From Daphnia pulex (Eukaryota > Arthropoda > Branchiopoda > Diplostraca > Daphniidae): a stretch of 64,000 nucleotides of DNA. The translations under genes and the position numbers were made by a program. Below, piece after piece: positions 16,201 to 33,500 of this stretch. Every line of letters begins with the position of its first letter. The stretch's first letter is position 1. Where the stretch lies: positions 439,001 to 503,000 of the forward strand of contig NC_060022.1 of assembly GCF_021134715.1 (NCBI RefSeq), given 5' to 3'. The notes beneath the pieces are model-generated. The model worked only from the letters and a program-made list of their open reading frames with translations. It searched no databases and was not told the origin of the DNA.

Positions 16201-19200
16201 AACCAGGCACGGATTATTGGATCCGCGTGAGTGCCTTAGTGAACGAGATGAAGGTCAAAGATGCGCCGGTCGTCGAGTTCCGCACTAATGCCTGCCGGCC
16301 CGATACGCCGCTCTTGCCCAAATTGCAGAACCGGACGAGGAATTCGCTTTTGGTGCGCTGGACGTCGCCGTCGGACAACGGGTCGACCATCGTCCACTAC
16401 ATCCTCGAGTGCGACGACGGAACGGGCGGCGACCAGTACAGCGAAGTCTACCGCAACCGCAACAAGCAGTTCACCATCGGCAAGCTGCAATCGTCCACGT
16501 GCTATGCAATTCGACTGGCGGCCTGCAACGAAATTGGGGCCAGCGACTGGAGCCCGGTCCTGAAAGCCACGACCATGGGCGCCCCGCCTCTGCCGCCTCC
16601 TCCGCCCACATTGCGCTCGGCCAGCGCCAAACAACTGAACCTCGTGTGGGGTGGTGGTCCGTCGTCGTCGTCGCCGGCCGACATGTTGTACACGCTCCAG
16701 ATGGTGGACCCTGATTCGGGTCACGGCTTCCTCAACGTCTACCACGGATCCGACAACGAATACACATGCACCGGCTTAACTCGCAGCACTGCTTATCGAT
16801 TCAGAGTAAGTTTCTCGCTCGCAAATCGACATCGTTGGACGACATGTCAACTTTAGGGGAGGGGAGGGACGGCCAGCAATCCAATCAAAACGTGATGGAT
16901 TGAATTAACCAATCCGAGTGGAAATGGGCGCCGGTCGTAACGCGTAAAATGAATTTGCTTGTTGATCTCGTTACAGTTGCAGGCGCAGAACGACGACGGC
17001 CTATCGAGGTGGTCGGAAGAGACGACCTTGTCGACGACGGCCGACCGCCCGGCCGCTCCTGCCCGCCCGAGCGTCAAGGGACGCATTCAGGCGCATAGCT
17101 TCCGCGTTCGCTGGGACCCGCCATTGGATTCGGGTGGCGCTCCCGTTAGACAGTACTCGCTGGAACTGGACTCGGCTGGCACAGGCTTTTCGCCCATCTG
17201 GAACGGGCCTGAAACGGAATTCAACTGCGACAAACTGACGCCGGGAACCACTTACCGCGTTCGGATTTCGTGCTTTAACGGCCAGGAGCACAGCGATGTT
17301 TCCGAGACGTTGATCGTCACCACCGAGCCCGTTTGCCCAGGAGCTCCGGCAGCACCGCACTTGGTGGGCAAAGTGCGGTCCACCAGTTTGCAGCTCGGAT
17401 GGGGTAAATAAATAAGGGAAAAGAAAAGAAATAACAAGGGCGACAAAATTGTTTATTATATTGCGGTTTCTGCGGTTTTTTGGTGGGGGGAGGCTTTTGC
17501 CCGCCGGCCAAACGTTGAGTGCTATTTTCTAATGTTTTCCATGGGATTCAAATAGAGCGGCCGGAATACGACGGCGGATCGATGGTAACCCAGTATGAAG
17601 TGAATATCATCAACCCGGATGGCAGCACAAGAATCGCCTTCTCCGGCTATGAGACGGAATGCCTCGTTGCGTCTCTTCTTCCCGGAAGGTGCTACGCGTT
17701 TCAAGTGCGGGCCAGCAATCGTATCGGGGTACGTTCCGCTAAATTTATAATGGATGGCCTATTCTTTTTATAACACCCGTATTCATGACGGGCTATTTTC
17801 TGCTCGTAAAGTTCTATCAATATGCAACAAGATGATAAATATCTGATCGTCTTTTTTAGTTTGGTCCCTGGTCCGAGTTGTTCGAGATCAAGAGCGGCCC
17901 AGGTGTTCCCAGTGCTCCTGTCCAGCCGTTGGTGACCAATCGATCGGCGCATTCGGTGTCGCTCGTCTGGAACGAGCCGGACAACAATGGCTCCCCTGTC
18001 CACGAATACCGTCTAGAGATGGCGCCTCACCCGCGAGTCACCAAGAGCTCGAGCGTCGGTTCGTTAACCGATTCGGCCGTCGATGTTCAAACGGCCAACA
18101 ACGCGGAAGACCCGGTCGACCCGGATCAATTAATTTTCACGCCCCACCACAGCGGGTCGGCCAAACAACTCGAAGTCAAAGGATTACACCCGTGGAACAC
18201 TTACCATTTCCGCGTCCAGGTAATGTTGGCTAATTGTTTCTAAGCAGTATTCTCTCATTCCAGTGTTCTCATGCGTGAATTTTCTTTTTCCGCCCGTTTT
18301 TTTTCTTTCCAGGCCGTCAATGCTATCGGTCTCAGTGCTTTCTCTCCAGTCTCTTCCATGACGACATTGGCTTCTTCCCCTGCGTCCGTTTCTGGTTTGC
18401 GGTGCACGTGCGTGACGGCGACCAGTCTGAGTCTTTCTTGGAACGCCCCCCATTGCAACGGCTCGTCCATCACGCACTACAACGTGGAAATCGGGGACAG
18501 AGGGACGTTCCCCACTAATGATTGTTCGACAACCTTTGACGTCAATTACCTGACTCCCGACACCACCTACAGGTTTGTTCTTTGGATCAATAAATGAGCG
18601 ACCCCTCAGAGTCGGTCCTTTTCTCTCTCTAAACTTGCATTCTCTCCTTGTGTGTGTGTTTTCAGAGTTCGCGTTCAAGCCGCCAACGCCATCGGCGTGG
18701 GTCCTTACTCGACAGCATTCAAATTCAGCACTCGACCTTTGCCGCCCGAAGCGCCGCGGCTCGAGTGCGTTCAAGCCAATCACAACAGCCTGAAGCTGCG
18801 CTGGGCCGACGGCAAGAACCTGGATTTCATCCATTATTCCGTGGAAATGCAGGAGGATGGCAGCGACAAGTATTTCATTTGGCATTGAGAAATCTATATA
18901 TTGACGTCGTCGTCGACTCACGAGTCGCTTTCAAGTGTCGTTGTCATGTAATGACATTTTTCTTCTTCTTTCTCCTTTTTTTTTATTTGATTATTCAGGT
19001 TCTATCTGGTTTATGAGGGAACCAGTCACAGCTACAGGGTGCCGAAATTGAAAGAATCGACGTCCTACACTTTTCGGATATGCGCTCGCAACGAGGTGGG
19101 CGAAGGACCTTACTCCGACGAGGTGGTGTACACGACGACCAGAGCGCCACCGCCGACGCTCAAGAGTAAATAAAAACCTATAAAATTCTTATCGAATCGT

Positions 19201-20013
19201 TGAGGCATAAATTATTGATTCGTGGGTTTCATATGTTTTTATTTGATGTTTGATACCAGAGCCGGAAGTGCTTGACTTGACGGAAACGAGCTGCCGTATC
19301 GTGTGGTCGGCATACCGATTACCCGTGTCCAGTGACAGCGTGATTTATCTGGTGGAAGTGACACGGACCAGGGAGTCGCAGGAGCCCATAGTGGTACCAC
19401 TTTTTCTCAACTTGTTTTTTATTTTAAATTTTTTGGGAAAGCACTTGGAATTAATGTTTATTTGATGGCGCACAGATGAGGAGGTGTTGGGAAAGCGAAA
19501 TAGCCGTCGACGGATTGGAATCGAGGACCGAATACTCTGTCCGCGTTTGCCCGATCCGGCTGTGCCAGGACGGCGAAATCCCGGGTGCTTATTCGCCTTT
19601 GAAAACATTCTTGACGCCATCAAATCAAGCCCAGAATCTATCGACAATCGATTCGCAACAGAATGCTTCCAGTCAGGTAAATACCGTCAAAACAATTTGA
19701 GTTTTGTTTTATTTTAAAAGGGACGGCAACAGTAGCGCTCTGGGTGGCGAAACTGTTGTAGCTCGTGCTGGAATCCTGATCCCGTCCCTTTATCGATTTC
19801 TTCTCCGCGATTGTTTTTTTCTCCTCTTTTTATTCTTCATTTTCTGGCGTGTTCCATGTGGTTTCTCATGTCGTTTTCCTTTGTCGTTTGTAGATGGCGA
19901 AGAAGACGCCGAAACCTCTGAAGGATCAGCAAGTTGTCTTCATCATCATCGCCGCTTTCATCCTCATTGCCATTATAATCGCCGTAGTGATGGATAACCT
20001 AGGTGTTAAGTGA
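5322..20013 (+). CDS. FNDC3: FNDC3-like fibronectin type III protein, tail-anchored (16 coding exons)
   Basis: Joining 5322-6951, 12527-12903, 14529-14754, 15187-15366, 15489-15664, 15822-16033, 16187-16805, 16977-17403, 17556-17728, 17860-18219, 18313-18572, 18666-18869, 18999-19165, 19260-19393, 19476-19676 and 19894-20013 gives an open frame of 5,466 nt (1,821 residues); every intron is GT-AG and all phases agree. Residues 1-540 are Ser/Gln/His/Asn/Gly/Pro-rich. Around 521-600 is the family block VHLHVNPGETVSLQ ... VPPGHVLQQIVDERGTLRHVI. Nine FN3 domains run from about 860 to 1765, each with the core Trp and a Tyr-x-Phe/Val-Arg-Val strand. Residues about 1796-1815 form one hydrophobic helix followed by six residues (DNLGVK), and there is no N-terminal signal peptide: a tail-anchored layout. 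Mammalian FNDC3A/B are about 1,200 residues with nine FN3 domains, in ER/Golgi or vesicle membranes; FNDC3A is required in spermatogenesis. This protein differs mainly in a much longer N-terminal half. The family assignment is firm; the function in this animal is inferred. Confidence 0.93.
6952..12526 (+). other. FNDC3 coding intron 1 (5.6 kb)
   Basis: Donor GTACTC at 6952 and acceptor ACACAG ending at 12526. No internal exon with matching phase and family similarity was found. It holds a (GA)n microsatellite at about 7216-7242, a 16-bp perfect palindrome of GGGCGGCC and its complement at 7263-7278, and many T-rich stretches. Being the longest intron of the gene and close to the start, it is the most likely place for intronic enhancers, but no specific site is supported. 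Confidence 0.8.
7216..7242. repeat. (GA)n microsatellite
   Basis: About 13 uninterrupted GA units in FNDC3 coding intron 1. Confidence 0.9.
12527..12903 (+). CDS. FNDC3: FNDC3 coding exon 2
   Basis: Residues about 544-669. It begins by completing a Gly codon (GPATVRMVSTGSPPVPLP), carries the FNDC3 family stretch VPPGHVLQQIVDERGTLRHVI, then Ala/Thr/Gln-rich and Pro-rich low complexity. The donor is GTAAGT at phase 0. Confidence 0.9.
14529..14754 (+). CDS. FNDC3: FNDC3 coding exon 3
   Basis: Residues about 670-744, linker rich in Gly, Pro, His and Ser with no recognised domain. The acceptor is TTGTTGCAG after a GTT repeat; the donor is GTATCA at phase 1. It is likely disordered. Confidence 0.85.
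15187..15366 (+). CDS. FNDC3: FNDC3 coding exon 4
   Basis: Residues about 745-804. It contains PSPVNYPNERLQRQSAKL and further Lys/Arg/Ser-rich sequence, resembling the short conserved basic helix found before the first FN3 domain in FNDC3 proteins. Both flanking introns are phase 1, so skipping would keep the frame. Confidence 0.85.
15489..15664 (+). CDS. FNDC3: FNDC3 coding exon 5
   Basis: Residues about 805-863. Opens DNNNIRKLKDRNQNGMPEIG, has a six-His run, and ends GAPQ just before FN3 domain 1. The donor is GTCTGT, phase 0; the acceptor is AACAG. Confidence 0.82.
15822..16033 (+). CDS. FNDC3: FNDC3 coding exon 6 (FN3 domain 1, first part)
   Basis: Residues about 864-933. VADVGSRSANVSWTPVEP is the B/C-strand start of an FN3 domain with its conserved Trp; it ends CSYRGKECHFR. 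The donor is GTATTT, phase 2. Confidence 0.88.
16187..16805 (+). CDS. FNDC3: FNDC3 coding exon 7 (FN3 domains 1-3)
   Basis: Residues about 934-1140. Finishes FN3-1 (DLQPGTDYWIRVSA), contains all of FN3-2 (LVRWTSPSDNGSTIVHYILE ... CYAIRLAACNEIG) and most of FN3-3 (LNLVWGGG ... STAYRFR). It is noticeably GC-richer than the surrounding introns. The donor is GTAAGT, phase 0. Confidence 0.92.
16977..17403 (+). CDS. FNDC3: FNDC3 coding exon 8 (FN3 domains 3-5)
   Basis: Residues about 1141-1282. Ends FN3-3 (LQAQNDDGLSRWS), contains FN3-4 (FRVRWDPPLDSGG ... TTYRVRISCFNGQ) and starts FN3-5 (LVGKVRSTSLQLGW). The donor GTAAAT is at phase 1, inside the FN3-5 core Trp strand. Confidence 0.92.
17556..17728 (+). 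CDS. FNDC3: FNDC3 coding exon 9 (FN3 domain 5)
   Basis: Residues about 1283-1340. ERPEYDGGSMVTQYEV ... GRCYAFQVRASNRIG is the remainder of FN3-5. The acceptor is AAATAG; the donor is GTACGT, phase 0. Confidence 0.9.
17860..18219 (+). CDS. FNDC3: FNDC3 coding exon 10 (FN3 domain 6 with insert)
   Basis: Residues about 1341-1460. FGPWSELFEIKSGPG closes FN3-5, then FN3-6 (SVSLVWNEPDNNGSPVHEY). About 40 Ser/Asp/Pro-rich residues are inserted in the middle of the FN3-6 fold before KQLEVKGLHPWNTYHFRVQ. The insert is unusual for an FN3 domain and presumably forms a surface loop. Confidence 0.9.
18313..18572 (+). CDS. FNDC3: FNDC3 coding exon 11 (FN3 domains 6-7)
   Basis: Residues about 1461-1546. 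AVNAIGLSAFSPVSSMTTLA finishes FN3-6; FN3-7 follows (LSLSWNAPHCNGSSITHYNV ... LTPDTTYR). The donor is GTTTGT, phase 2. Confidence 0.9.
18666..18869 (+). CDS. FNDC3: FNDC3 coding exon 12 (FN3 domains 7-8)
   Basis: Residues about 1547-1614. VRVQAANAIGVGPYST ends FN3-7; FN3-8 begins (LKLRWADGKNLDFIHYSVEM). The donor is GTATTT at 18870. Reading through it meets TGA at 18886, so splicing to 18999 is required; it restores the family pattern DKFYLVYEG. Confidence 0.87.
18999..19165 (+). CDS. FNDC3: FNDC3 coding exon 13 (FN3 domain 8)
   Basis: Residues about 1615-1670. FYLVYEGTSHSYRVPKL ... TSYTFRICARNEVGEGPYS is the second half of FN3-8. This exon's frame depends on the phase-2 intron before it. The donor is GTAAAT, phase 1. 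Confidence 0.88.
19260..19393 (+). CDS. FNDC3: FNDC3 coding exon 14 (FN3 domain 9, first part)
   Basis: Residues about 1671-1715. PEVLDLTETSCRIVWSAYRL starts FN3-9 with its core Trp. The donor is GTACCA, phase 0. A GT two codons earlier also exists but would not preserve the frame as well. Confidence 0.82.
19476..19676 (+). CDS. FNDC3: FNDC3 coding exon 15 (FN3 domain 9, end)
   Basis: Residues about 1716-1782. Contains ESRTEYSVRVCPIRLCQDGE and GAYSPLKTFLTPS, the end of FN3-9, then a polar Ser/Gln/Asn linker. The acceptor is GCACAG; the donor is GTAAAT, phase 0. Confidence 0.85.
19894..20013 (+). CDS. FNDC3: FNDC3 coding exon 16 (C-terminal membrane anchor)
   Basis: Residues about 1783-1821 and the TGA stop. 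MAKKTPKPLKDQQ is a basic juxtamembrane stretch, followed by about 20 strongly hydrophobic residues (VVFIIIAAFILIAIIIAVVM) and the tail DNLGVK. The short luminal tail is typical of a tail-anchored protein whose FN3 domains face the cytoplasm; topology is inferred. Confidence 0.9.
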   Translation: MAKKTPKPLKDQQVVFIIIAAFILIAIIIAVVMDNLGVK

Positions 20014-21700
20014 AGAGCAATCATTGAAAAGCAAAAGATATTGTGTGGCAGCCGGAAAAGGGGAGGCAAAGTAAACGAGACAAATTACGAAAAATGATGA
20101 AACGGGATTGATGATTCCCGCCGCTCGTGGGATTTCTGGGAATTTTTGGGAGGGAACGACTCCGACGGCACAAATTTACAGTTGACACAATCCGCACATC
20201 ACACCACCGCTTCCCTTCGGACCGGATTGTTTATTCCATATCAATTCTCTATTATAAGATAGTCTACGATATTTTCTCCATATTATATTGTTGTTTAGGA
20301 AAAGAGAGAAGCGAAACGACGGTGTTAAACAAGCGACTTAAATTGATCCTCTCCTTCTTTAATTGATACTCTTGCAAAGACAAACCCCCCCGTGTGTCCA
20401 CTCATACACCATGTGACCCACACCCACACACACCTTACTATCGCCCCACTGCGACAAGTTGTTCCAAGTCACTTGTTATTGGCAAAACATTCCTCATCGG
20501 CACAGCGCATGAGTTATATAATGGAAATACGTTTTTCTTTATATATATTTGTTTCGGGTTCGGATTGATCTATTTCTCCCTCTCCCTCCGCCAAGTTACG
20601 TTTATTCCTTTTTCTATATATGATTTTGTCTTTTGCACTTTATTTTTTCTTCGCCGGATTGTGTGTGTGCGTATGCTATTGCAGAGAATTATTCCAACTC
20701 CATTTTTTTGTTTGTCCTCCGTCAATGAAATGTATTGACTTTATGCGGTTTATGTTTACTTTTCGTTCTCCATTCGAGCACTTTAGTCGGAAAAACGTTC
20801 TCTCTATTATCTGTCCTTTGATTCGTTCCTCTTTCCAAGTTACCCATGGCATCATTCGCAAAAAGAAAACCAAAACGGGGGGAAAAAAACTGACGCTATT
20901 ATAAAAAAAAAAAATGAAACGAAACATTTCCGGGGAGAGAGACTTTAATGGAAGCAAGTTGAATGAAAGTTTATTGTGGTGCCAATTCATATATATTTTT
21001 TTTTTGCCTTTGGTTTGTTTGTTTATCTTTATTTTTCTATCCCATATTATATTTTTTTGGTCCTTGATATTCTCTATATGCTCTCTATCCTTCTCACACT
21101 TGATATCTCCACCTACCTTTGCCCCCTGGTTTCTTTGATTCGATGGATGCAAACGTAAATGTCTGTGACTTTATTCCCCTTTCAGAGAAACAATCGCCAC
21201 GTTATTATTATGTCTTGGGTTCAATTCTACACACTAAAACTTAAAGAAAAAAAGAAAGAAAAAAATACGCATATTTTCCAGGGTGTTTATATACGGATTC
21301 CACAGTTTATCTCCATCTATTTCTCTATCCACCACATACACACATAAATATATATATTATATATACAGTTTATATCTTATGATCCAAAACCAACCAACTA
21401 AAATAGGACATTGCTTGGCCATATGTTATAGATAAGAAGTTATTTCTCTATTTTTATATAGCCCACAAGGAGGAAAAAAAAAACAAAAAAAATATATATA
21501 TTATCCATGGTTTTCCAGGGAGTGACAGAGTTGAATGAGAGAAAAGAAGAAAACATTGAAGAAAAAGAAAAAAAAAACCAACAATCAATCAATTTTTCGA
21601 TGTAATTTGGATGTTTTCTATATTGAAGAAACGCGCCATTTGAGCTTTTTGTGTGCTGCTGGATGTATCATATTCTATTAAACACGGAAACGGAAAAGAT
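20014..21700 (+). other. FNDC3 3' untranslated region
   Basis: A+T-rich stretch after the stop codon with no other coding signal. A variant polyadenylation signal ATTAAA at 21677-21682 is followed within about 20 bases by a T/GT-rich segment, the usual layout of a cleavage site. That suggests a 3'UTR of about 1.7 kb. I saw no canonical AATAAA closer to the stop; earlier alternative ends are possible. Confidence 0.5.
21677..21682 (+). terminator. candidate polyadenylation signal ATTAAA
   Basis: ATTAAA with a T/G-rich downstream element at about 21700-21716. This is the best candidate for the end of the FNDC3 transcript. Confidence 0.4.
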
Positions 21701-22087
21701 TGTTCTTTGCCTGTGGAATTCTGGAATTTCTTGTTTTCTTTTAATTTGTCTCGCCAGGCTGGATGTCGTGTGAAATTAATTGCGTGTGCGGGATGTCAAG
21801 GAAAATAGAAAACTATAGAATCGGTTGCCATTCAATTTCAATTCAGTACAGTTAACAACAAAAAAGCATTTTTTAGTTTTTTACTCCTGAAGGATTGTCC
21901 TCTAGTCCTCTACAGGGCATTAACCCATAACTGTACTGGAAGTGGAAACGCCTGAGAGCTGCCCGAGAAAGGGAATGCCCCCTAATGCCCCCTACCTTAC
22001 GCCATCTAGCGAAGAAGGAAACAAATCCGTAATGCCATCTAGCAATTAAAAAAAAAAACATTTTATCAGTCGACCGCTTCATTCAGT
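21701..22087. other. gap between FNDC3 and palindrome
   Basis: No gene. GCCATCTAGC occurs twice, at 22001-22010 and 22034-22043. The first copy sits in CGCCATCTAGCG, the reverse complement of the motif at 3426-3437. Confidence 0.5.
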
Positions 22088-22295
22088 CGAATTTTGGTCA
22101 TTCGTTTGACGTTTCCGAGACCGAGACACAAGAGTCCGAGACACTCGGTGAAGACGTAGGCCTATTTCAATATAATGGTACTGCGGCATTTCCATTTTCC
22201 ATCATGAAAGCTAAGTTTAAAAAGATTTTGTTTCGTTACGAGACTGTATGATTGCTGAACGTAAAAAATTAAAAATTTTACATGTTTATTTACAG

Positions 22296-22427
22296 GAAAT
22301 CTAGCCTGTAATTTCAAATCTGCCAAATCACCTTGCCAGTTATCACATTCATGTGGCCTGAAAATGATGTTGCTTGCTACTTGAATTGGATGTATGTACA
22401 GCCCATGCAGAAACACTTGACAGAAAA
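22296..22427 (+). other. exon-like segment E0, left arm
   Basis: 132 bases flanked by a good acceptor (TTATTTACAG ending at 22295) and a strong donor (GTAAGT at 22428). One frame is open for about 39 codons from after an early stop to the donor, but it does not continue into the next exon-like segment without a stop. It could be a noncoding RNA exon or a decayed gene. The mirrored copy is at 30226-30357 on the minus strand. Confidence 0.35.
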
Positions 22428-22654
22428 GTAAGTGTGTTATGTCAACCAATTTTCATTCAAATTTAGTTGTTGTTGACAGGGTAGATCTAGATCCTATTTT
22501 GTTGTAGAATCGATTGTGTTGCATCTTCATTGGACATGTGGTTTTACGATTCAATTTCCATGGGGTTGAACTAGACTTACTATTGTAAGTTGGGAAGTCT
22601 TGCCAAGTGTAGATTCTATTGTAAATTTGTGATATTAGAATGGCAACATGAGCA

Positions 22655-23060
22655 CAAATTCCAAAATAGAGTATCCTTGTAGCTTCGAGGGACTGTTGAG
22701 TTAAACTTTATGCCTTTGATTATATTACATCACACGAGACATTTCCTTCTCTATATTAATTCAATATTTTTTCAATTGTTTTAACAGCAACTGAGTATGA
22801 GCTGCACCCAGATGGTGGAAGGTGTGAAAAAGTCAGCTGTTGCATTCAGTTTGTGAGATGCAGAAACCAGAAATGATTCACAGAAAGGTAACTATGTTCA
22901 TTAATTTCTCTTTTAGAAAGCTTTAGATTAAGTAATGGAAGACCAGAGAATAGATCCCTTTGCTTCAGTATTGTAACTTTCAGTGAAGTCTGTGAACGTA
23001 TGGTTTTACCATGGTTTTACATTATTTAATTTTTTATCCTTTTTATTTTTTTTTTATTAA
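22655..23060 (+). repeat. direct repeat module, copy A (left arm)
   Basis: About 400 bases repeated with roughly 80% identity at 23885-24270. It includes upstream intron-like sequence, a 100-nt exon-like core (22788-22887) between TTTTAACAG and GTAACT, and downstream intron-like sequence. The mirror is at about 29593-29998. Confidence 0.75.
22788..22887 (+). other. 100-nt exon-like segment, copy A
   Basis: Acceptor TTTTAACAG, donor GTAACT. One frame reads TEYELHPDGGRCEKVSCCIQ and stops shortly before the donor. Same length and splice sites as copy B at 24019-24118. Mirror at 29766-29865 on the minus strand. Confidence 0.35.
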
Positions 23061-23207
23061 ATTCTTTGCTATAGATTTTTCTGTACAATTTCTACTATCA
23101 AAATAATTTTGACGGATTTTGGTGATTCAACTTTACAGTCTTTACTCCTGTCAGCTTGCTTGCTAATTTTATGCTAATTTTCTGGAATATGTCGTTTGTC
23201 GAAAATT

Positions 23208-23248
23208 GTGTCCACCAGGTGGCGGAGTGTCTGTTCGTGAGTGACGAA
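23208..23248 (+). promoter_or_regulatory. 41-bp element with CTCF-like core, left arm
   Basis: Contains CCACCAGGTGGCGGAG (23212-23227), which matches the CTCF core consensus closely. About 36 of 41 bases are shared with an element at 30525-30565 that straddles the right end of the palindrome; the mirror copy is 29405-29445. It is followed immediately by GCCGCCATTTG (about 23250-23260), which resembles a YY1 site. Function is inferred from motif similarity only. Confidence 0.4.
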
Positions 23249-23249
23249 G

Positions 23250-23389
23250 CCGCCATTTGCTTTTGAGGCAGTGTACGGTGGTGTACGGGAATGGGTTGCT
23301 GCTTCATGATGGTCTTCACTTTTACATTTGAAAAAATGTTTCCACGCCATTCGACCAAGCTGAATGGAAAGTGAACAATTTTAAAGCAA
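23250..23389 (+). promoter_or_regulatory. candidate promoter/first exon in left arm
   Basis: YY1-like GCCGCCATTTG, then about 130 bases ending at a strong donor (GTAAGT at 23390). A 27-codon frame begins MGCCFMMVFTFTFEK. The antisense strand is open across 23098-23358. This might be a TATA-less, possibly bidirectional, start of transcription toward the palindrome centre. Weak evidence. Confidence 0.25.
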
Positions 23390-23884
23390 GTAAGTCAATT
23401 GTGAGAGTTTTGACTTTTTGGAAGTCCATTTTCTAATCCACTTTAATTTTTTTTTGTAAAATCATGTCGGAGATCTTGCCTTTATCCACGTGATCGCTGC
23501 CGTGTCATGAAGGTGTGTCTTTGAGAGGGTCTCTACTATATTGCAAGACAAAAATGTGATGAAAACAGGAAATCTGAAATGGTAATAATGTACTTTTAAG
23601 TTAAATCATGTAGGTTGTCACTTGTTTTTGACATCAAGAACAAAATGCTATCTTATTTCGTGCTTCCAAATAAGACAGCTTTTGTGGAAAATTTGTTGTC
23701 AGTTTCGAATCAATCATTATAGAAATTCCCCTTCAACTTGAAAAAATTTAAAGAAAATTTTCACAAAGTAATCTTTGGTTATCTTCATGATTTCTTTTTC
23801 TCTAGTAATCTAAATTTGAAGTTTATCATTGCCTCAACTACAACATGTTGCGACCTCTTATGATACAGTTGCAAGCTAAAATGA

Positions 23885-24270
23885 GCACAATTCCAAATAG
23901 TATATTCTTGTAGTTTTGAGGGACTGTTTAGTTTAACTTTATCCCTTTCATTATATTACATCCAACAAGACATTTCTTTCTCAATAGTAATTTAATATTT
24001 TTTCAATTGTTTTAACAGCATCTGAGTATGAGCTGCAGCCAGTTGGTGGAAGTTGTGAACATGTTAGCTGTTGCAATCAGTTTGTGAGGCATCTCATGCA
24101 GAAACCAGAAATGATAAGGTAACTATGTTCATTAATTTCTCTTTAAGAAAGCTTTAAATTAAGTAAAGGGAGACCAGAGAGTTGATTTCTTATATTGTAA
24201 CTTTCAGTGAAGTCTGGACGTGTGGTTTTACATGATTTGATTGTCATCCTTTGCATTTTTTATTTAAGTG
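23885..24270 (+). repeat. direct repeat module, copy B (left arm)
   Basis: Second copy of the module at 22655-23060, same orientation, about 1.2 kb further in. Its 100-nt exon-like core (24019-24118) has one frame open throughout (SEYELQPVGGSCEHVSCCNQ). The mirror is at about 28383-28768 in the right arm. Confidence 0.75.
24019..24118 (+). other. 100-nt exon-like segment, copy B
   Basis: Acceptor TTTTAACAG ending at 24018 and donor GTAACT at 24119 are conserved with copy A although surrounding sequence has diverged by about 20%. Mirror at 28535-28634 on the minus strand. I recognise no protein family. Confidence 0.38.
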
Positions 24271-25497
24271 GAAGTTTAAAGAAAATTTTCATAAAGTTAT
24301 CTTTGGTCCTCTGCATGATATCTTTTTCTCCAGTTATCTAAATTTAAAGTGTATCATTGCCTTAACTTCAACACATTGCAACCATTTATGATACATTTGC
24401 AAGCTAAAGTGAAATATCATTTGCATATATTTTTCATGTTTAGAGATGTATTTTTACTAATCTATTTTAATTTTGTGACGAGAGCATGTCGGAGATCTTG
24501 CCTTTCTCAACGCGCGGTGCCGTATCAACAAGATGTCTCTTTAATGAGGTCTCTACTATATTGCAAAACAAAAATATGAAGAAAACAGGAAATCTGGAAT
24601 GGTAATGATTTACGTGTAAGATAGATAGATCAAGCGGGTTAGCATTTTGCTTAAACTTTTGTCTACGTATTTGTGCTAGTTATGCGTGTTCTTTGTTTAG
24701 AATTTACTGAAGTTAAGAATTTGATTTAGATGAAATTTGACTACTCCTGCTTCTAAATAAGACAGCTTTTATGAAAAGAAAATCAGCTTGTGAAGAGTTG
24801 TAAATTATTTTGATCAAACAGAACAGAAATTCCCCTCATTCTTAAAAACTTGAAGTTAAATCTTCATCTTTGGTCATCTTCTTGATTTATTTTTCTCCAG
24901 TCTGATGTAAATTCGAAGAAAATCTTTGCCTTAATTACTAAGTGTTTGAAAAATTTATTTTACGATTGTAAGCTAAAGTTAAACATCAATGGCATTTGTT
25001 GTTTTGCTTTGTAAATTTTAATTTTGATTTCATATCTTTTTTTACATTTCAAAATGTTACTGGTTCATTAACGTTCTTTTGCTTTGTAGGATTCCATGGT
25101 CAGTTTGATGTTTGAGCTGTTTATGGTGTTGCTGTTTGGTGTGAAGTGGGTTTGCAGCGGTTTGCAGTAATTTTCTACTTGAGAGATGCGCTGAAATGGA
25201 GTTTCGTCAGACTTGCAGTTCAATATCATACTTCAATGTGTTATTTCCCTATGTTTGTGTCCGTCCCGTGTTTGAGGTGGTGGGCAAAACAGTCATTGTT
25301 GTCTAATGGCTGCCGAGGCATAATTTATCGACTGCATTTTGTCTATGTCTCTTGCTATCTGTACTGGCGTTGAGGTAGTGCTTGATGAACAGTATCATTT
25401 AGTTTTTCAGTCGTTATTGCAGCCTATGTTGGTAAAAGATCTATTTGCATCAAGTTAACCTGGCTGTTTTTTGTGTTGGTGCAGTGTTACGAAAGTT

Positions 25498-26228
25498 GCA
25501 TCATTATTTTGTTGAATTGTCATTGTGTCTGCAGTTTATCGTTTATATGTTAGGAAGGAAAAAAAAAACATATGGGGAATTCATGTCAAAAAATTAATAA
25601 ACATGCTTTCGGGATTGGGAAAGGAATGTGGAGGTTGTCAGGTGGGAGGGTAGTGACTTGAATTTTCATATCTCAAAATATAATGAGGTATGTTAATATG
25701 TTCTGATGTGAAAAACGTGGATAAAAACTTTATAAATCCACAACAACTCCTATAATGTTACAACCTATTACCTAATTAATCTAAAATCATACAACACTTA
25801 TAATCCTCTAACCTTATACCTAATTAATCTGTAATCCCATAACTCATGACCAATTTTCAATTTACCTGACTAAACCATATCCCTACAACATTCACATCCC
25901 TACAACCAATTACCTGATACACCTGTCAACACAACTGTTGTATGATTTTAGATTAGTTGGATAATATATTGTATCATTAAGAAGTTTTGTAGATCTATAA
26001 TGTATTATTTCACATTAATCACTTCAGTACATTTAACATACTACATTATATTTTGAAATATGAAAATTAAAGTCACCACTCTTCCACCTGACAACCACCA
26101 CATTCCATTCCCAATCCCGAAAACATGTTTATTAATTTTTTTACATAAATTCCCCATAACTCGTTTTTTTCCCTTCCTAACATATAAAAGATAAACTGCA
26201 GATACAATGACAATGCAACAAAATGATA
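25498..26228. mobile_element. foldback-type element in left arm
   Basis: About 730 bp whose two halves (about 25498-25810 and 25920-26228) are inverted copies, around 85% identical. Both ends carry TTGTCATTGTG/ATCTGCAG, TATGTTAGGAAGG, a purine run, and TTCGGGATTGGGAA. No transposase is encoded and target-site duplications are not evident. The structure fits a foldback or long-TIR non-autonomous DNA element. Confidence 0.6.
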
Positions 26229-26424
26229 CTATTAAATTTGTACTGTAAAAAATTTTAATTTTAAATTTATATTCTCAAACATGTAATCTTACTAATTAAA
26301 AAATTTTTTGTCATTAAAATAAACAATGTTATTATGCAATGATGAGAAAATAAGAATTTATAAATTTGATTTAGATGTTTTTAATGTAAATTATTTAATT
26401 ACAGTTATTTAACAGTTTTATTAT
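26229..26424. other. palindrome spacer
   Basis: About 196 bases, very A+T-rich, separating the arms. The exact symmetry point (26326/26327) is not symmetrical in sequence beyond scattered A/T matches, so the arms do not form a perfect hairpin tip. Confidence 0.7.
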
Positions 26425-27155
26425 TTTGTTATATTGTCATTGTGTTTTTTTGTTTAGTTTATCTTTTATATGTTAGGAAGGGAAAAAAACGAGTTATGGG
26501 GAATTTATGTAAAAAAATTAATAAACATGTTTTCGGGATTGGGAATGGAATGTGGTGGTTGTCAGGTGGAAGAGTGGTGACTTTAATTTTCATATTTCAA
26601 AATATAATGTAGTATGTTAAATGTACTGAAGTGATTAATGTGAAATAATACATTATAGATCTACAAAACTTCTTAATGATACAATATATTATCCAACTAA
26701 TCTAAAATCATACAACAGTTGTGTTGACAGGTGTATCAGGTAATTGGTTGTAGGGATGTGAATGTTGTAGGGATATGGTTTAGTCAGGTAAATTGAAAAT
26801 TGGTCATGAGTTATGGGATTACAGATTAATTAGGTATAAGGTTAGAGGATTATAAGTGTTGTATGATTTTAGATTAATTAGGTAATAGGTTGTAACATTA
26901 TAGGAGTTGTTGTGGATTTATAAAGTTTTTATCCACGTTTTTCACATCAGAACATATTAACATACCTCATTATATTTTGAGATATGAAAATTCAAGTCAC
27001 TACCCTCCCACCTGACAACCTCCACATTCCTTTCCCAATCCCGAAAGCATGTTTATTAATTTTTTGACATGAATTCCCCATATGTTTTTTTTTTCCTTCC
27101 TAACATATAAACGATAAACTGCAGACACAATGACAATTCAACAAAATAATGATGC
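26425..27155. mobile_element. foldback-type element in right arm
   Basis: Mirror copy of the element at 25498-26228, in inverted orientation. The two copies face each other across the 196-bp spacer, giving four related 300-bp inverted segments at the palindrome core. Confidence 0.6.
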
Positions 27156-29404
27156 AACTTTCGTAACACTGCACCAACACAAAAAACAGCCAGGTTAACT
27201 TGATGCAAATAGATCTTTTACCAACATAGGCTGCAATAACGACTGAAAAACTAAATGATACTGTTCATCAAGCACTACCTCAACGCCAGTACAGATAGCA
27301 AGAGACATAGACAAAATGCAGTCGATAAATTATGCCTCGGCAGCCATTAGACAACAATGACTGTTTTGCCCACCACCTCAAACACGGGACGGACACAAAC
27401 ATAGGGAAATAACACATTGAAGTATGATATTGAACTGCAAGTCTGACGAAACTCCATTTCAGCGCATCTCTCAAGTAGAAAATTACTGCAAACCGCTGCA
27501 AACCCACTTCACACCAAACAGCAACACCATAAACAGCTCAAACATCAAACTGACCATGGAATCCTACAAAGCAAAAGAACGTTAATGAACCAGTAACATT
27601 TTGAAATGTAAAAAAAGATATGAAATCAAAATTAAAATTTACAAAGCAAAACAACAAATGCCATTGATGTTTAACTTTAGCTTACAATCGTAAAATAAAT
27701 TTTTCAAACACTTAGTAATTAAGGCAAAGATTTTCTTCGAATTTACATCAGACTGGAGAAAAATAAATCAAGAAGATGACCAAAGATGAAGATTTAACTT
27801 CAAGTTTTTAAGAATGAGGGGAATTTCTGTTCTGTTTGATCAAAATAATTTACAACTCTTCACAAGCTGATTTTCTTTTCATAAAAGCTGTCTTATTTAG
27901 AAGCAGGAGTAGTCAAATTTCATCTAAATCAAATTCTTAACTTCAGTAAATTCTAAACAAAGAACACGCATAACTAGCACAAATACGTAGACAAAAGTTT
28001 AAGCAAAATGCTAACCCGCTTGATCTATCTATCTTACACGTAAATCATTACCATTCCAGATTTCCTGTTTTCTTCATATTTTTGTTTTGCAATATAGTAG
28101 AGACCTCATTAAAGAGACATCTTGTTGATACGGCACCGCGCGTTGAGAAAGGCAAGATCTCCGACATGCTCTCGTCACAAAATTAAAATAGATTAGTAAA
28201 AATACATCTCTAAACATGAAAAATATATGCAAATGATATTTCACTTTAGCTTGCAAATGTATCATAAATGGTTGCAATGTGTTGAAGTTAAGGCAATGAT
28301 ACACTTTAAATTTAGATAACTGGAGAAAAAGATATCATGCAGAGGACCAAAGATAACTTTATGAAAATTTTCTTTAAACTTCCACTTAAATAAAAAATGC
28401 AAAGGATGACAATCAAATCATGTAAAACCACACGTCCAGACTTCACTGAAAGTTACAATATAAGAAATCAACTCTCTGGTCTCCCTTTACTTAATTTAAA
28501 GCTTTCTTAAAGAGAAATTAATGAACATAGTTACCTTATCATTTCTGGTTTCTGCATGAGATGCCTCACAAACTGATTGCAACAGCTAACATGTTCACAA
28601 CTTCCACCAACTGGCTGCAGCTCATACTCAGATGCTGTTAAAACAATTGAAAAAATATTAAATTACTATTGAGAAAGAAATGTCTTGTTGGATGTAATAT
28701 AATGAAAGGGATAAAGTTAAACTAAACAGTCCCTCAAAACTACAAGAATATACTATTTGGAATTGTGCTCATTTTAGCTTGCAACTGTATCATAAGAGGT
28801 CGCAACATGTTGTAGTTGAGGCAATGATAAACTTCAAATTTAGATTACTAGAGAAAAAGAAATCATGAAGATAACCAAAGATTACTTTGTGAAAATTTTC
28901 TTTAAATTTTTTCAAGTTGAAGGGGAATTTCTATAATGATTGATTCGAAACTGACAACAAATTTTCCACAAAAGCTGTCTTATTTGGAAGCACGAAATAA
29001 GATAGCATTTTGTTCTTGATGTCAAAAACAAGTGACAACCTACATGATTTAACTTAAAAGTACATTATTACCATTTCAGATTTCCTGTTTTCATCACATT
29101 TTTGTCTTGCAATATAGTAGAGACCCTCTCAAAGACACACCTTCATGACACGGCAGCGATCACGTGGATAAAGGCAAGATCTCCGACATGATTTTACAAA
29201 AAAAAATTAAAGTGGATTAGAAAATGGACTTCCAAAAAGTCAAAACTCTCACAATTGACTTACTTGCTTTAAAATTGTTCACTTTCCATTCAGCTTGGTC
29301 GAATGGCGTGGAAACATTTTTTCAAATGTAAAAGTGAAGACCATCATGAAGCAGCAACCCATTCCCGTACACCACCGTACACTGCCTCAAAAGCAAATGG
29401 CGGC

Positions 29405-29445
29405 TTCGTCACTCACGAACAGACACTCCGCCACCTGGTGGACAC
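29405..29445 (-). promoter_or_regulatory. 41-bp CTCF-like element, right arm
   Basis: Exact mirror of 23208-23248: CTCCGCCACCTGGTGG on the plus strand, beside AAATGGCGGC (YY1-like). Confidence 0.4.
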
Positions 29446-30225
29446 AATTTTCGACAAACGACATATTCCAGAAAATTAGCATAAAATTAGCAAGCAAGCT
29501 GACAGGAGTAAAGACTGTAAAGTTGAATCACCAAAATCCGTCAAAATTATTTTGATAGTAGAAATTGTACAGAAAAATCTATAGCAAAGAATTTAATAAA
29601 AAAAAAAATAAAAAGGATAAAAAATTAAATAATGTAAAACCATGGTAAAACCACACGTTCACAGACTTCACTGAAAGTTACAATACTGAAGCAAAGGGAT
29701 CTATTCTCTGGTCTTCCATTACTTAATCTAAAGCTTTCTAAAAGAGAAATTAATGAACATAGTTACCTTTCTGTGAATCATTTCTGGTTTCTGCATCTCA
29801 CAAACTGAATGCAACAGCTGACTTTTTCACACCTTCCACCATCTGGGTGCAGCTCATACTCAGTTGCTGTTAAAACAATTGAAAAAATATTGAATTAATA
29901 TAGAGAAGGAAATGTCTCGTGTGATGTAATATAATCAAAGGCATAAAGTTTAACTCAACAGTCCCTCGAAGCTACAAGGATACTCTATTTTGGAATTTGT
30001 GCTCATGTTGCCATTCTAATATCACAAATTTACAATAGAATCTACACTTGGCAAGACTTCCAACTTACAATAGTAAGTCTAGTTCAACCCCATGGAAATT
30101 GAATCGTAAAACCACATGTCCAATGAAGATGCAACACAATCGATTCTACAACAAAATAAGATCTAGATCTACTCTGTCAACAACAAATAAATTTGAATGA
30201 AAATCGGTTGACATAACACACTTAC

Positions 30226-30357
30226 TTTTCTGTCAAGTGTTTCTGCATGGGCTGTACATACATCCGATTCAAGTAGCAAGCAACATCATTTTCAGGCCAC
30301 ATGAATGTGACAACTGGCAAGGTGATTTGGCAGATTTGAAATTACAGGTTAGATTTC
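30226..30357 (-). other. exon-like segment E0, right arm
   Basis: Mirror of 22296-22427. It differs at several positions, but the acceptor CAG and donor GTAAGT are both kept on the minus strand. Antisense to it the plus strand is also open (65 codons, 30237-30434). Confidence 0.33.
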
Positions 30358-30524
30358 CTGTAAATAAACATGTAAAATTTTTAATTTTACGTTCAGCAAT
30401 CATACAGTCTCGTAACGAAACAAAATCTTTTTAAACTTAACTTTCATGATGGAAATGCCGCAGTACCAATACATTGTAATAGGCCTTCGTCCTCACTGAG
30501 TGTCTCGGAAACGAATGACCAAAA

Positions 30525-30565
30525 TTCGTCACTCGCGAATAGACAATCCGCCACCTGGCGGACAT
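30525..30565 (-). promoter_or_regulatory. 41-bp CTCF-like element at right palindrome boundary
   Basis: Third copy of the element, with TCCGCCACCTGGCGGA at its core. Only its first four bases lie inside the palindrome (end at 30528); no equivalent is present at the left end, where the flank has unrelated sequence. Confidence 0.4.
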
Positions 30566-33500
30566 TTAGTTTAGTCACCTAGTGATAACTGATAAGCGAC
30601 AGATGGCGACAAGAGATGAATAAAAAAGTTGATTCAAAATACCTGAGATGATTATAGGGCTCGCGTTGCAAGCGTTGGCCTTCGGCTAAGTCACCGAGCT
30701 ACCTTGTAAGAATTACGGGAAAATTAGCTTTTTACGAGTTTCAAAGCGCATTTTGATCGATAAAAATCCCTCCTCGATCAAGATAAATCCGCTTTGGAGG
30801 ATGCGTACCTAGGTGAAAAGCATTGCGGATTGCGGGGTTTCAATTCCATGTTCCGCAATCAATAATGCTTTTAACCTAGGTAACGATTGCCGCTGGCAGC
30901 TGAGGTTGGGTGTGTGGCTCGACTCACTTTAGGACACAGAGCCACAGAGGGAATCTGTGCTCCTATCCGTCCGTGGCCGTAACTGAAGTAGGCTATGGTA
31001 AAAACGCGGAATTCGCGGTAGACAAATGGCACGATTCTTTATATTCGAATTTAACATTTTTTTTTAAACATCAGATAACTTCGATTTTCTCTCTTCCCTA
31101 ATAATGATGCATAATACGAATAATAAATTTGTGGGGGGAGGGGGGTTGTGGGTGAACAAATTGACAGGATGAAAAAGCAAAAGAAGGAAAGAAATAAGGA
31201 AAAAGTCAAAAAGCTCTTTAATGATGGCCATGTTTGTGTGTCAAATAGAAAACTTGCTGTCGTTCTAAATTGGTGGCTGCTCCCGAATGGGGCGGAGAAA
31301 CCAACGTGGAATAAAGGCGAAACTTTTTCCTGAGTCATTAATCTGTGTAAAGAAGAAGAACAAAACATTGGCACATCCCAGTGACTTTATTGGAACGGCC
31401 GCGTATATCGTACGTTTCCGACACCCTATGTAAAAGTCTATATAGCTAATTATTGGTGACACTGGCACATCTTGAATGAATCCTTCTAAAGCCCGAAAGT
31501 AAACTTTTTCGAGGTCAAGTTCTAGCGATCAAAGCAAATACATCATAGTTAATCAAATGTGCTATGCTGTATTCCATTGATAGGCTACAACGATTTGGGT
31601 ATCCACGACAACGGCGACGATGAAACATGAGCGATTAAAAATGTGTAGAATTCTTGGTTATTCTTATTGAGTAGACGCCCCACAGATTGTGCAGTTGCGT
31701 AATAACGTAATTTGAGATCACTGCCGGACGGGTAGTCGCAAGCGGGGACTTTCGATCCGTTTCCCAGCCGGTAGGGGTGGCTATTATTTGGTAAACAACT
31801 TCAGCGAAGGTAGTAGCTACAAGAACGTATTGCGCATGCTATAAACACCAATCACGCCGTAATAATACATCACTTACCAGATCCCCAGCTGAATCACGAA
31901 AACAGATTCGTATAATAAAGTTTCAAAGAGTCGAGAAAAATTATTGGTTTGGACCTAAGGCAACTTTCTTGTGCAGGATAACTTGCATAGTGCTCTTCAT
32001 TTCATTAAAATTTCAGACTTGATCAAAGTATTACAAGACATCGAGAAGCAACGCAAAGAAAAGTAAAAGTTTCGAACTTTAAAAGAAATTCAAAAGGATA
32101 TATAGTCGGGAATGATTTGACGGCGTTGAAGAAGGAAGTAAAAACATTTTACCCAAGGCGAAATGCCTTTCAAGGTATAGTGAAGCAGTGCAGCAATAAA
32201 GTGAAAAATATTGCCAAGCTCTTTTTCGCTGAGTGGGTTGAGTGCCGGTATGAGGAACCGTCATTGTTGCACCGCAATTCCACTAATGATCAATTCAATC
32301 ATGACGGCCAATAGTTTACGGGTATATATACGTATACCCAACGCTCCCTCTTTGTTGTCCCCATTTCGGCTGAATTATGAAAATGCTGTGGCGGCGCCTT
32401 CTATTTCTCTCAGGATTCGCATGACAACCGTCGGCACGCTCGGATTGCGGCCACGGCTTTTCTGTTTTGCCTGTTAAGTTGTTTTTTGTTGTTGTTGTTT
32501 TTTTACGGCAAGTCGGCAAACTATTTCAGATTTTCAAAGAATTTTATCGACTCACGTAAGCGCAGTGCAATTACCAAACTTAAATCCGAATAAAAGGTAA
32601 CAATTAGATTGCATTTATTTTTGTATTTCATCCGCGACGCTTGTCAAAATAGCGAGGCAACTACACTTGTTTGTAATGACAATACACGAAATTTTCCATC
32701 GACTTTCCGCGTGCATCAGTAGGCAATCGCATCCGATGACCTGCTGACAGAACGGTGAGTAGATTATCCAAGTTTGCCGGGGCTTGTCAAGTCATCTAGC
32801 TCCTAGCTACGGATCAATACTAGTATCACTTCACACATGCATGAAAGATTGTATGGCAGGCAAAGGTATAAGCTACTCTCTCTGCTCTGCCTCGTATATC
32901 GCATATATCCTAGGTTGCAGACATGAGAGAGAGAGAGAGAGAGTGAAGCCGGGCCGAATATTCTATCCGGATTTGGCTGTTGCTTCTGTCAAGTCAACGT
33001 CAACTATTATAACTATTTCTTTCAGTTTGGCTAGGCAAGACGAGGGGTGGGGATGCGCTCGATGAAGCCTGAAGAGTCGCATGAATTGAGAATTACGCCA
33101 AAGCGAATCCAACCATGATTGTCAAATAACCAAGACGAATAGACTCTCAAGCTCGCGTCATCATCGCTTTCGTCACGTAGAGATTCACGATTTTCCGCAA
33201 CGACGACATTTGTCACCGCAGAAAAGTTTGCCGGACGTCACCACGCAACGTGTTGCAAAGCGTCGTTCTTAATGCGTCTCCGCATCTGTCTGTGACCTTT
33301 ACATATTAAAAAAAAAAAAAAAAAAAAACATTATAAAATATCAAGTGCTAATAGTGTGCTACTACGTGCTGGAATAATTATTCAACCGCATTTGTGGTTA
33401 TTTTTACCAAGTTTTGTTCGTTTCTTTTTTTCTTTTTTTGTTTTTTTTTTTTTTTTTAGAAAATTATCCGGACTGATTTATCTTTATACGAATGGCGGTG

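Follow-up and report, generated by a model that had tools for sequence, protein, structure and literature searches.

Gene conversion between the arms of palindromes is best known from sex chromosomes, where it is often explained as gene rescue. Daphnia pulex has environmental sex determination and alternates clonal and sexual reproduction. Mammalian X and Y palindromes have long inverted arms near 99% alike that evolve in concert, unstable spacers that are often unalignable between species, and arms that match spacer or flank sequence elsewhere (PMC8981503). The D. pulex palindromes described here resemble them in all these respects, but have arms of ~2–10 kb against a mammalian median of 37 kb, and are apparently noncoding, AT-rich and dispersed over many loci, on no known sex chromosome (PMC8981503). 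Similarly, palindromic repeats on a willow sex chromosome provide a case of gene conversion outside mammals, as is proposed here, but a sex-linked one (PMC7023750). Gene palindromes are also described in two small parthenogenetic invertebrates, Folsomia candida and Adineta vaga; these are collinear gene blocks, and for F. candida wide Ks ranges are reported and concerted evolution is argued against (PMC5490193, PMC7953838). The palindrome screen of PMC7953838 left out D. pulex for want of annotation. Palindromes of a comparable kind thus occur on sex chromosomes of mammals and willow; an apparently noncoding family in a crustacean, dispersed but clustered by chromosome, is a new form of them. 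Searches of open-licence PMC papers listed no description of this family among titles and opening lines of abstracts.

The window, a stretch of 64,000 nucleotides of D. pulex (contig NC_060022.1, positions 439,001 to 503,000), contains a real, confirmed palindrome, here called W. Comparison of the window with itself by BLASTN returned W as one inverted match (22135–30509; 98.0% over 8419 columns), which bears out the ~4.1-kb arms of the initial annotation. The outer coordinates proposed there, 22088 and 30528, are also right: the outermost 20 bp on each side pair across a 28-bp indel. The features of the region are as follows.

16164–18240, plus strand: fn3-domain exons of the upstream, FNDC3-like neighbour (domain and protein matches)
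22088–22107, plus strand: outermost paired tip, left
22135–26241, plus strand: left arm (self-comparison)
22645–23017, plus strand: internal direct duplicate, 83% identical to 23878–24238
23046–26197, plus strand: identical core of 3152 bp, left, letter-identical to 26456–29607
23878–24238, plus strand: internal direct duplicate, partner of 22645–23017 (self-comparison)
25040–25420, plus strand: block with good conservation across loci (60-bp windows reach 97%); dispersed copies at 72–77%
25503–25799, plus strand: inner fold-back repeat A of the left arm, adjoining the axis, 85% identical to the reverse complement of 25933–26227
25933–26227, plus strand: inner fold-back repeat A′ of the left arm, its end being the site where arm pairing breaks down at seven of seven loci
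26242–26411, no strand: unpaired spacer at the axis, 170 bp, AT-rich (14% GC), unalignable to the spacers of paralogous palindromes
26412–30509, minus strand: right arm, the reverse complement of the left (self-comparison)
26420–27150, minus strand: right-arm counterpart, in mirror form, of the inner fold-back element (26420–26720 and 26854–27150; self-comparison)
26456–29607, minus strand: mirror copy of the identical core (coordinates via the mirror sum 52653)
30509–30528, minus strand: outermost paired tip, right
30529–30656, no strand: right flank, with homology to the outer arms of E2, a palindrome at C6:4682000–4696506

A repeat search delimited the core of W as 23025–26241 and 26412–29628, 99% identical and 170 nt apart, rather than separated by the 196-bp spacer first reported. 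The mirror relation given with that spacer, in which position x pairs with 52653 − x, holds for 23025–26241 and 22265–22593 but is off by one in the block between them. The left copy of the 3152-bp run ends at C6:465197, and pairing towards the axis starts to decay at ~26198. If the 29 difference events between the arms were placed randomly, a gap of 3152 bp or more would have P ~1e-17, and the run is likely to be the latest conversion tract.

Searches of the genome (133.19 Mb, 13 contigs) covered the best 40 of 435 candidate matches to the W arm, the best 37 of 1020 to the E2 arm, the best 40 of 1010 to a C8 copy and the best 40 of 157 in one further family search; the numbers of family members given for C6, C8 and other contigs are minimum values. 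The best 20 arm matches belong to nine loci, and every one of these has copies on the two strands. The same arm recurs in mirror form at seven loci, namely W and the W-type loci P1–P6 on C6 and C1, and a related type makes further palindromes (E1, E2 and E3). Arm pairing fails between window-equivalent positions ~26167 and 26239 in all seven W-type palindromes, and their spacers are unrelated. On C6 there are at least 27 family loci, with a median spacing of 135 kb over 5 Mb. Both arms are among the matches listed at 15 of these, in one polarity without exception, and only one arm at the other 12; a single E-type copy on C3 also looks solitary within the 7 kb examined. The palindromic form is thus not obligatory. 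Paired copies are also among the matches listed for C1, C4 and C8, and the rarity expected of such structures finds no support, at least in this genome. Close relatives are chromosome-specific: among the matches listed, a C8 copy has 13, counting itself, of at least 91% identity and more than 1.9 kb, all on C8, and the E2 arm has 13, again counting itself, of at least 92% identity and more than 3 kb, all on C6.

Arms evolve in concert at six of the seven W-type loci. A maximum-likelihood tree placed the two arms as sisters within these loci, paralogues being more distant, with support of 100/100 for W, P1, P2, P5 and P6 and 90/93 for P3. Arm-to-arm identity is 98.3–99.1% in W, P1, P2, P3 and P5, against 76–97% (median 86%) for 84 between-locus pairs. 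High identity within loci and lower identity between them is the pattern that gene conversion between the arms of an old palindrome leaves. Letter-identical runs span 3152 bp in W, 2625 bp in P1, 3582 bp in P2 and 2177 bp in P3, and divergence is concentrated towards the outer and inner arm ends around these identical cores, with scattered differences in the inner third of P1 and P3. The differences are strongly clustered at W, P2, P3, P5, E2 and E3 (P from 0.002 to 2e-21, P1 being left out), and not significantly so at E1 (P ~0.11). Mirrored partners also score alike against an outer-arm probe, as at P1 (550/550 bits) and E1 (504/504 bits), with 20 of 20 candidates scored. The exception is P4, whose arms are 90% alike and whose left arm is placed with P3 (96.6%), and because of this it appears that conversion can stop or that loci can exchange sequence. 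The arms of P6 are 88% alike. Raised arm GC, as would follow from GC-biased conversion, was not seen, the arms having 33% GC against 42–44% in the 5-kb flanks; such a rise is reported for primate X palindromes but the human Y result is mixed (PMC8981503), so that it does not strictly define gene-converting palindromes.

It is proposed, with good confidence, that W belongs to a dispersed, apparently noncoding palindrome family of one ancestral origin, copied whole and kept alike between arms by gene conversion. The ancestral palindrome would have formed once, presumably by fold-back priming, with its axis just inside the fold-back repeat; the axis and polarity are shared between loci. The whole palindrome would then have been copied, mostly within chromosomes, where its close relatives lie, the copying agent probably being recombination or repair (duplication or break-induced copying) rather than a transposase. 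After copying, arm-to-arm conversion would have homogenised each locus, at which sister arms and identical cores with diverged ends are observed. For the most part the family is probably selfish DNA, rather than kept for the sake of a product.

Outer ends bear on how the copies spread. In W, homology of the right flank to E2 stops at the exact base where the E2 palindrome ends, and 30529–30656 is probably a former part of the arm, without a counterpart on the left side of W. P1, P5 and E1 begin to match W at one same base in both arms and share further sequence outside this point, which marks it as an old junction rather than an insertion end. At E1, both arms hold the 3′ part of a flanking ENPP-type phosphodiesterase gene; in the sequence examined, the 5′ exons of this gene occur only outside the right boundary. 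Palindromes can therefore grow outwards.

It is unlikely that the family is a DNA transposon of fold-back or Galileo-like type, with terminal inverted repeats of great length, that inserts as a palindrome. Galileo comprises dispersed elements with long inverted repeats, a likeness to this family. Inverted ends on dispersed copies and a fold-back repeat within each arm would suit such an element, local hopping would fit the clustering by chromosome, and the two recurring outer junctions (W with E2; P1 with P5 and E1) make it slightly more likely. However, at least two junctions replace a single common terminus, sequence is shared beyond one of them, and the E1 arms continue into host gene sequence; Galileo-type transposons (PMC4168063) differ from this family, which has no single precise end and in which no transposase was found among 48 open frames of at least 85 aa from 12 stretches. 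A search with the tip gave at least 16 matches with differing outer flanks, and an element with fixed ends was rejected. Inspection by eye of the palindrome boundaries at nine loci, which may not be true element ends, showed no target-site duplication.

About equally unlikely is independent formation at each locus, after single arms had spread, with the fold-back repeat as a hot spot for inverted duplication and arms alike because they are young. Pairing breaks down where the fold-back repeat ends at all seven loci, as a hot spot would predict, and the unrelated spacers agree with this. Short inverted sequences bracket the spacer as in fold-back-primed inverted duplications, of which they are a signature, but the cases described are new rearrangements in patients, whereas this family looks old and under conversion (PMC3907307). 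Against this reading, outer arm ends are more diverged than cores, contrary to what recent duplication predicts, polarity is equal in 15 of 15 C6 loci with both arms listed, and no solitary long W-type arm occurs among the best 20 matches.

Somewhat less probable again is that the family gives rise to long hairpin RNA, or consists of genes of noncoding or small-protein type, with the palindrome selected for double-stranded RNA or dosage; this would be compatible with arm-to-arm conversion. It draws on the conserved, exon-like block at 25040–25420, whose start resembles a 3′ splice site by eye. The D. pulex gene model DAPPUDRAFT_311218 covers this block, as do two short ENA contigs. A frame through the block is open for 100–151 aa at P1–P4 and 136 aa at E3, and a frame of a sister locus matches DAPPUDRAFT_311218 at 94% over one third of its length. 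The arms are for this reason called only apparently noncoding, and some family copies may code for protein. Yet the same frame spans 26 aa in both W arms and 57–64 aa at P5 and P6, it has no Pfam match, and conversion alone explains the identity of the arms. Indel events in multiples of three are few between W and P1, P2, P3 and P5 (10/63, 12/69, 8/62 and 11/68, respectively), and the best period-three windows differ in place between loci (chi-square ≤10.8, uncorrected for many windows), although the close relatives P2 and P3 both have one near 23018–23031. No consistent codon signal between loci was found, and coding arms appear disfavoured, the open frame at P1–P4 and E3 apart. Pfam recognised two families, MRP-S28 and FANCL_d3 (7e-4), among the 48 open frames.

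There is a small chance that the C6 series acts chromosome-wide, for instance by providing cruciform or hairpin-RNA sites for homologue pairing or the marking of chromatin domains, with the chromosome-specific subfamilies as an address code. Least credible is an assembly artefact, in which a missed adapter, a chimeric read or an inverted haplotype joining made the mirror: polishing of a false (or true) palindrome would give a 100% identical core, and part of that identity in W could indeed be polishing, but the flanks are not the same, differences between the arms persist inside them at P1, P3 and P5, and, decisively, an artefact should not reproduce one axis at seven old paralogous loci with a median of 14% divergence between them. 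The initial annotation had likewise argued against a simple chimeric read; the differing flanks, the outer divergence and the axis common to six paralogous loci uphold that view, whereas its premise, symmetry of an artefact up to the very centre, is weak alone.

The palindromes thus carry the same conversion signature as their sex-chromosomal counterparts in an apparently noncoding family, on crustacean contigs without known sex linkage. The seven W-type loci are replicates at different stages, W being intact while P4 and P6 decay; together with the growing E1 they form a natural series that would serve for measuring conversion, spacer turnover and outward growth. D. pulex is also available as mutation-accumulation lines (PMC6325897). 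Variants called here from short reads would confound one arm with the other and one locus with another.

No Rfam family reaches the gathering score in the window, and a snoRNA host gene reading was dropped; three weak Rfam matches in 22000–26400 (E 0.39–4.8) are at chance level, and no tRNA or tmRNA genes were found in the window. A segmental duplication was rejected for both flanks: 20000–22087 on the left matches itself and short dispersed repeats only, and the right flank itself, short repeats and 77–150 bp at E2 and P2 only. Upstream, the first stretch of the fn3-domain neighbour matches titin best (1e-37), followed by FNDC3A chains (2e-21); taken with the gene layout, this makes the neighbour a putative FNDC3, in line with the initial annotation.

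W, the palindrome under study, is real and is probably one of a family of Daphnia palindromes that cluster by chromosome, appear to be noncoding and undergo gene conversion. The initial annotation had placed an 8.4-kb palindrome at window positions 22088–30528; BLASTN bears this out with an inverted repeat of 98.0% identity, and the proposed tips, 22088 and 30528, form a paired 20-bp stretch set off from the arms by a 28-bp indel. The arms enclose a 170-bp spacer, and GC content is 14% in the spacer, 33% in the arms and 42–44% in the 5-kb flanks. Differences between the arms fall in the outer 1 kb and at the inner ends, and one run of 3152 bp is letter-identical; if the 29 difference events were scattered uniformly, a gap of this length would have a probability of ~1e-17. 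W lies between an upstream fn3-domain gene, whose first tested stretch was best matched by titin and then by FNDC3A chains, and a downstream carboxylesterase-family gene (Pfam PF00135), a neuroligin as judged by eye. A short dispersed repeat, with many copies elsewhere at 93–99%, occupies 30644–30729, just beyond the right end.

Palindrome W and related loci (C1 and C6 are contigs; identities are arm-to-arm)
W, left arm: window 22135–26241; inverted repeat with 26412–30509; 98.0% (BLASTN)
W, right arm: window 26412–30509; inverted repeat with 22135–26241; 98.0% (BLASTN)
P1, paralogous locus: C6:4.25 Mb; 98.6%
P2, paralogous locus: C6:4.58 Mb; 99.1%
P3, paralogous locus: C6:5.13 Mb; 98.3%
P4, paralogous locus: C6:5.26 Mb; 90.0%
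P5, paralogous locus: C1:3.37 Mb; 98.5%
P6, paralogous locus: C1:3.97 Mb; 88.2%
E1, related palindrome: C6:2.95 Mb; arms C6:2944583–2952327 and C6:2955445–2963189; 99.7%
E2, related palindrome: C6:4.69 Mb

The genome searched comprises 133,188,837 bases in 13 contigs, with the window at C6:439001–503000. The best 20 matches to the left arm of W (40 of 435 candidates scored) fall at nine loci, every one with copies on both strands, and mirrored copies of most of the arm occur at six loci besides W (P1–P6). What E1 and E2 have in common with W is ~660 bp of the outer arm plus a portion of the fold-back repeat next to the axis, with other sequence in between; the 22-kb palindrome E3 (C2:1.46–1.48 Mb; C2:1462086–1484430) has only weaker blocks in common with the family. 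An outer-arm probe (20/20 candidates scored) gave 14 matches that reach 260 bp and 82% identity, of which 12 form six mirrored pairs and the other two are single arms, one from P4 and one from P6. Six further matches were shorter or weaker, and unpaired. Many more copies were found with an E2 arm as the query, and 35 of the 41 matches of at least 1300 bits, among those listed, lie on C6. Merging the stronger C6 matches of three genome searches yields at least 27 family loci at a median spacing of 135 kb, with both arms, all of one polarity, at 15 or more and a single arm at 12 among the matches listed; these counts are lower bounds, and the listed matches favour close relatives of the query. 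The nearest relatives of a C8 copy are on C8 (at least 13 listed matches with at least 91% identity over >1.9 kb, itself included).

In a maximum-likelihood tree of 14 arms from seven loci (W, P1–P6), left and right arms are sisters at six loci, with support of 100/100 for W, P1, P2, P5 and P6 and 90/93 for P3. The exception is P4, whose left arm groups with P3 and takes part in all six between-locus pairs above 91.5%. Arm-to-arm identity in W is 98.5% in this comparison, and identity between loci is 76–97% (median 86%, 84 pairs). All seven loci share one axis, arm pairing failing between window-equivalent positions ~26167 and ~26239, and their spacers are not alignable between loci. The mirror structure thus appears to predate the dispersal of the copies, with the arms kept alike ever since. 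Arm-to-arm gene conversion, the known mechanism for keeping palindrome arms alike (PMC8981503), would homogenise the arms within each locus. Differences cluster strongly at W, P2, P3, P5, E2 and E3 (P1 was left out), and show no clustering at E1 (P 0.11).

The palindromes also appear to grow and decay. E1 arms reach outwards into an ENPP-like phosphodiesterase gene, whose 5′ exons lie past the right boundary (Pfam PF01663, C6:2963911–2964198) and have no mirror in the 0.9 kb beyond the left boundary; the gene copy in the left arm therefore seems to be truncated and derived from the right side. Positions 30529–30656, right of W, match the outer arms of E2 and the left side has no such match, which suggests that the outermost part of the left arm of W has been lost. 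Decaying palindromes are seen at P4 and P6.

The arms of the W family look noncoding, with a reservation for an open frame at some loci. This frame runs through block 25040–25420, which has dispersed copies at 72–77% and starts, by eye, with a splice-like acceptor. It spans 26 aa in W, where both arms carry a 10-bp insertion that cuts it short, 57–64 aa at P5 and P6, 100–151 aa (open) at P1–P4 and 136 aa at E3. The P3 frame has a 94% match, across one third of its length, to a Daphnia pulex gene model, and two ENA contigs covering the conserved frame (758 and 1075 bases) might be transcripts. Among 48 open frames of at least 85 aa, drawn from 12 stretches, Pfam recognised just two families, MRP-S28 and, weakly, FANCL_d3, and no Rfam family exceeded its threshold in the window. 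An MRP-S28-type mitochondrial ribosomal protein fragment lies in the E1 spacer (C6:2953453–2953734; E 3.9e-7). The E3 arms (99.3% identical) carry tyrosine-threonine-rich frames resembling, by eye, cuticle proteins. A frame in the E3 spacer looks, by eye, like part of a non-LTR retrotransposon, with no more than a weak match to zf-RVT (E 0.03).

Repeated formation of palindromes at a fold-back hot spot is a possible but improbable alternative. It would leave long arms without a partner, and palindromes of both polarities; neither was observed among the W-type matches listed, although an E-type copy on C3 seems to stand alone in the 7 kb examined around it. Dispersal as a DNA transposon is improbable: local hopping would suit the clustering by chromosome, but outer ends are unequal between loci and no transposase occurs among the 48 frames. 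Two outer junctions do recur, one common to W and E2 and another to P1, P5 and E1, which made a transposon marginally less improbable and gene-converting palindromes marginally less secure; the second junction is not a terminus, because P1, P5 and E1 have further common sequence outside it. An assembly artefact would not be expected to give W the same axis as its diverged paralogues.

Elsewhere in the genome, two unrelated probes match C12 ~1148700–1190509 in inverted pairs about nearly one mirror axis (coordinate sums 2339209 and 2339226), as expected of a palindrome whose arms measure at least 20 kb. The inner fold-back segment forms more inverted pairs tens of kb apart (C9 9352041–9391723, C9 9092952–9185642 and C6 305605–369560), suggesting more large inverted repeats. 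Copies of segment 23374–23689 lie less than ~70 kb from contig ends (both ends of C7 and C9, and the start of C12), as if it were part of a subtelomeric repeat.
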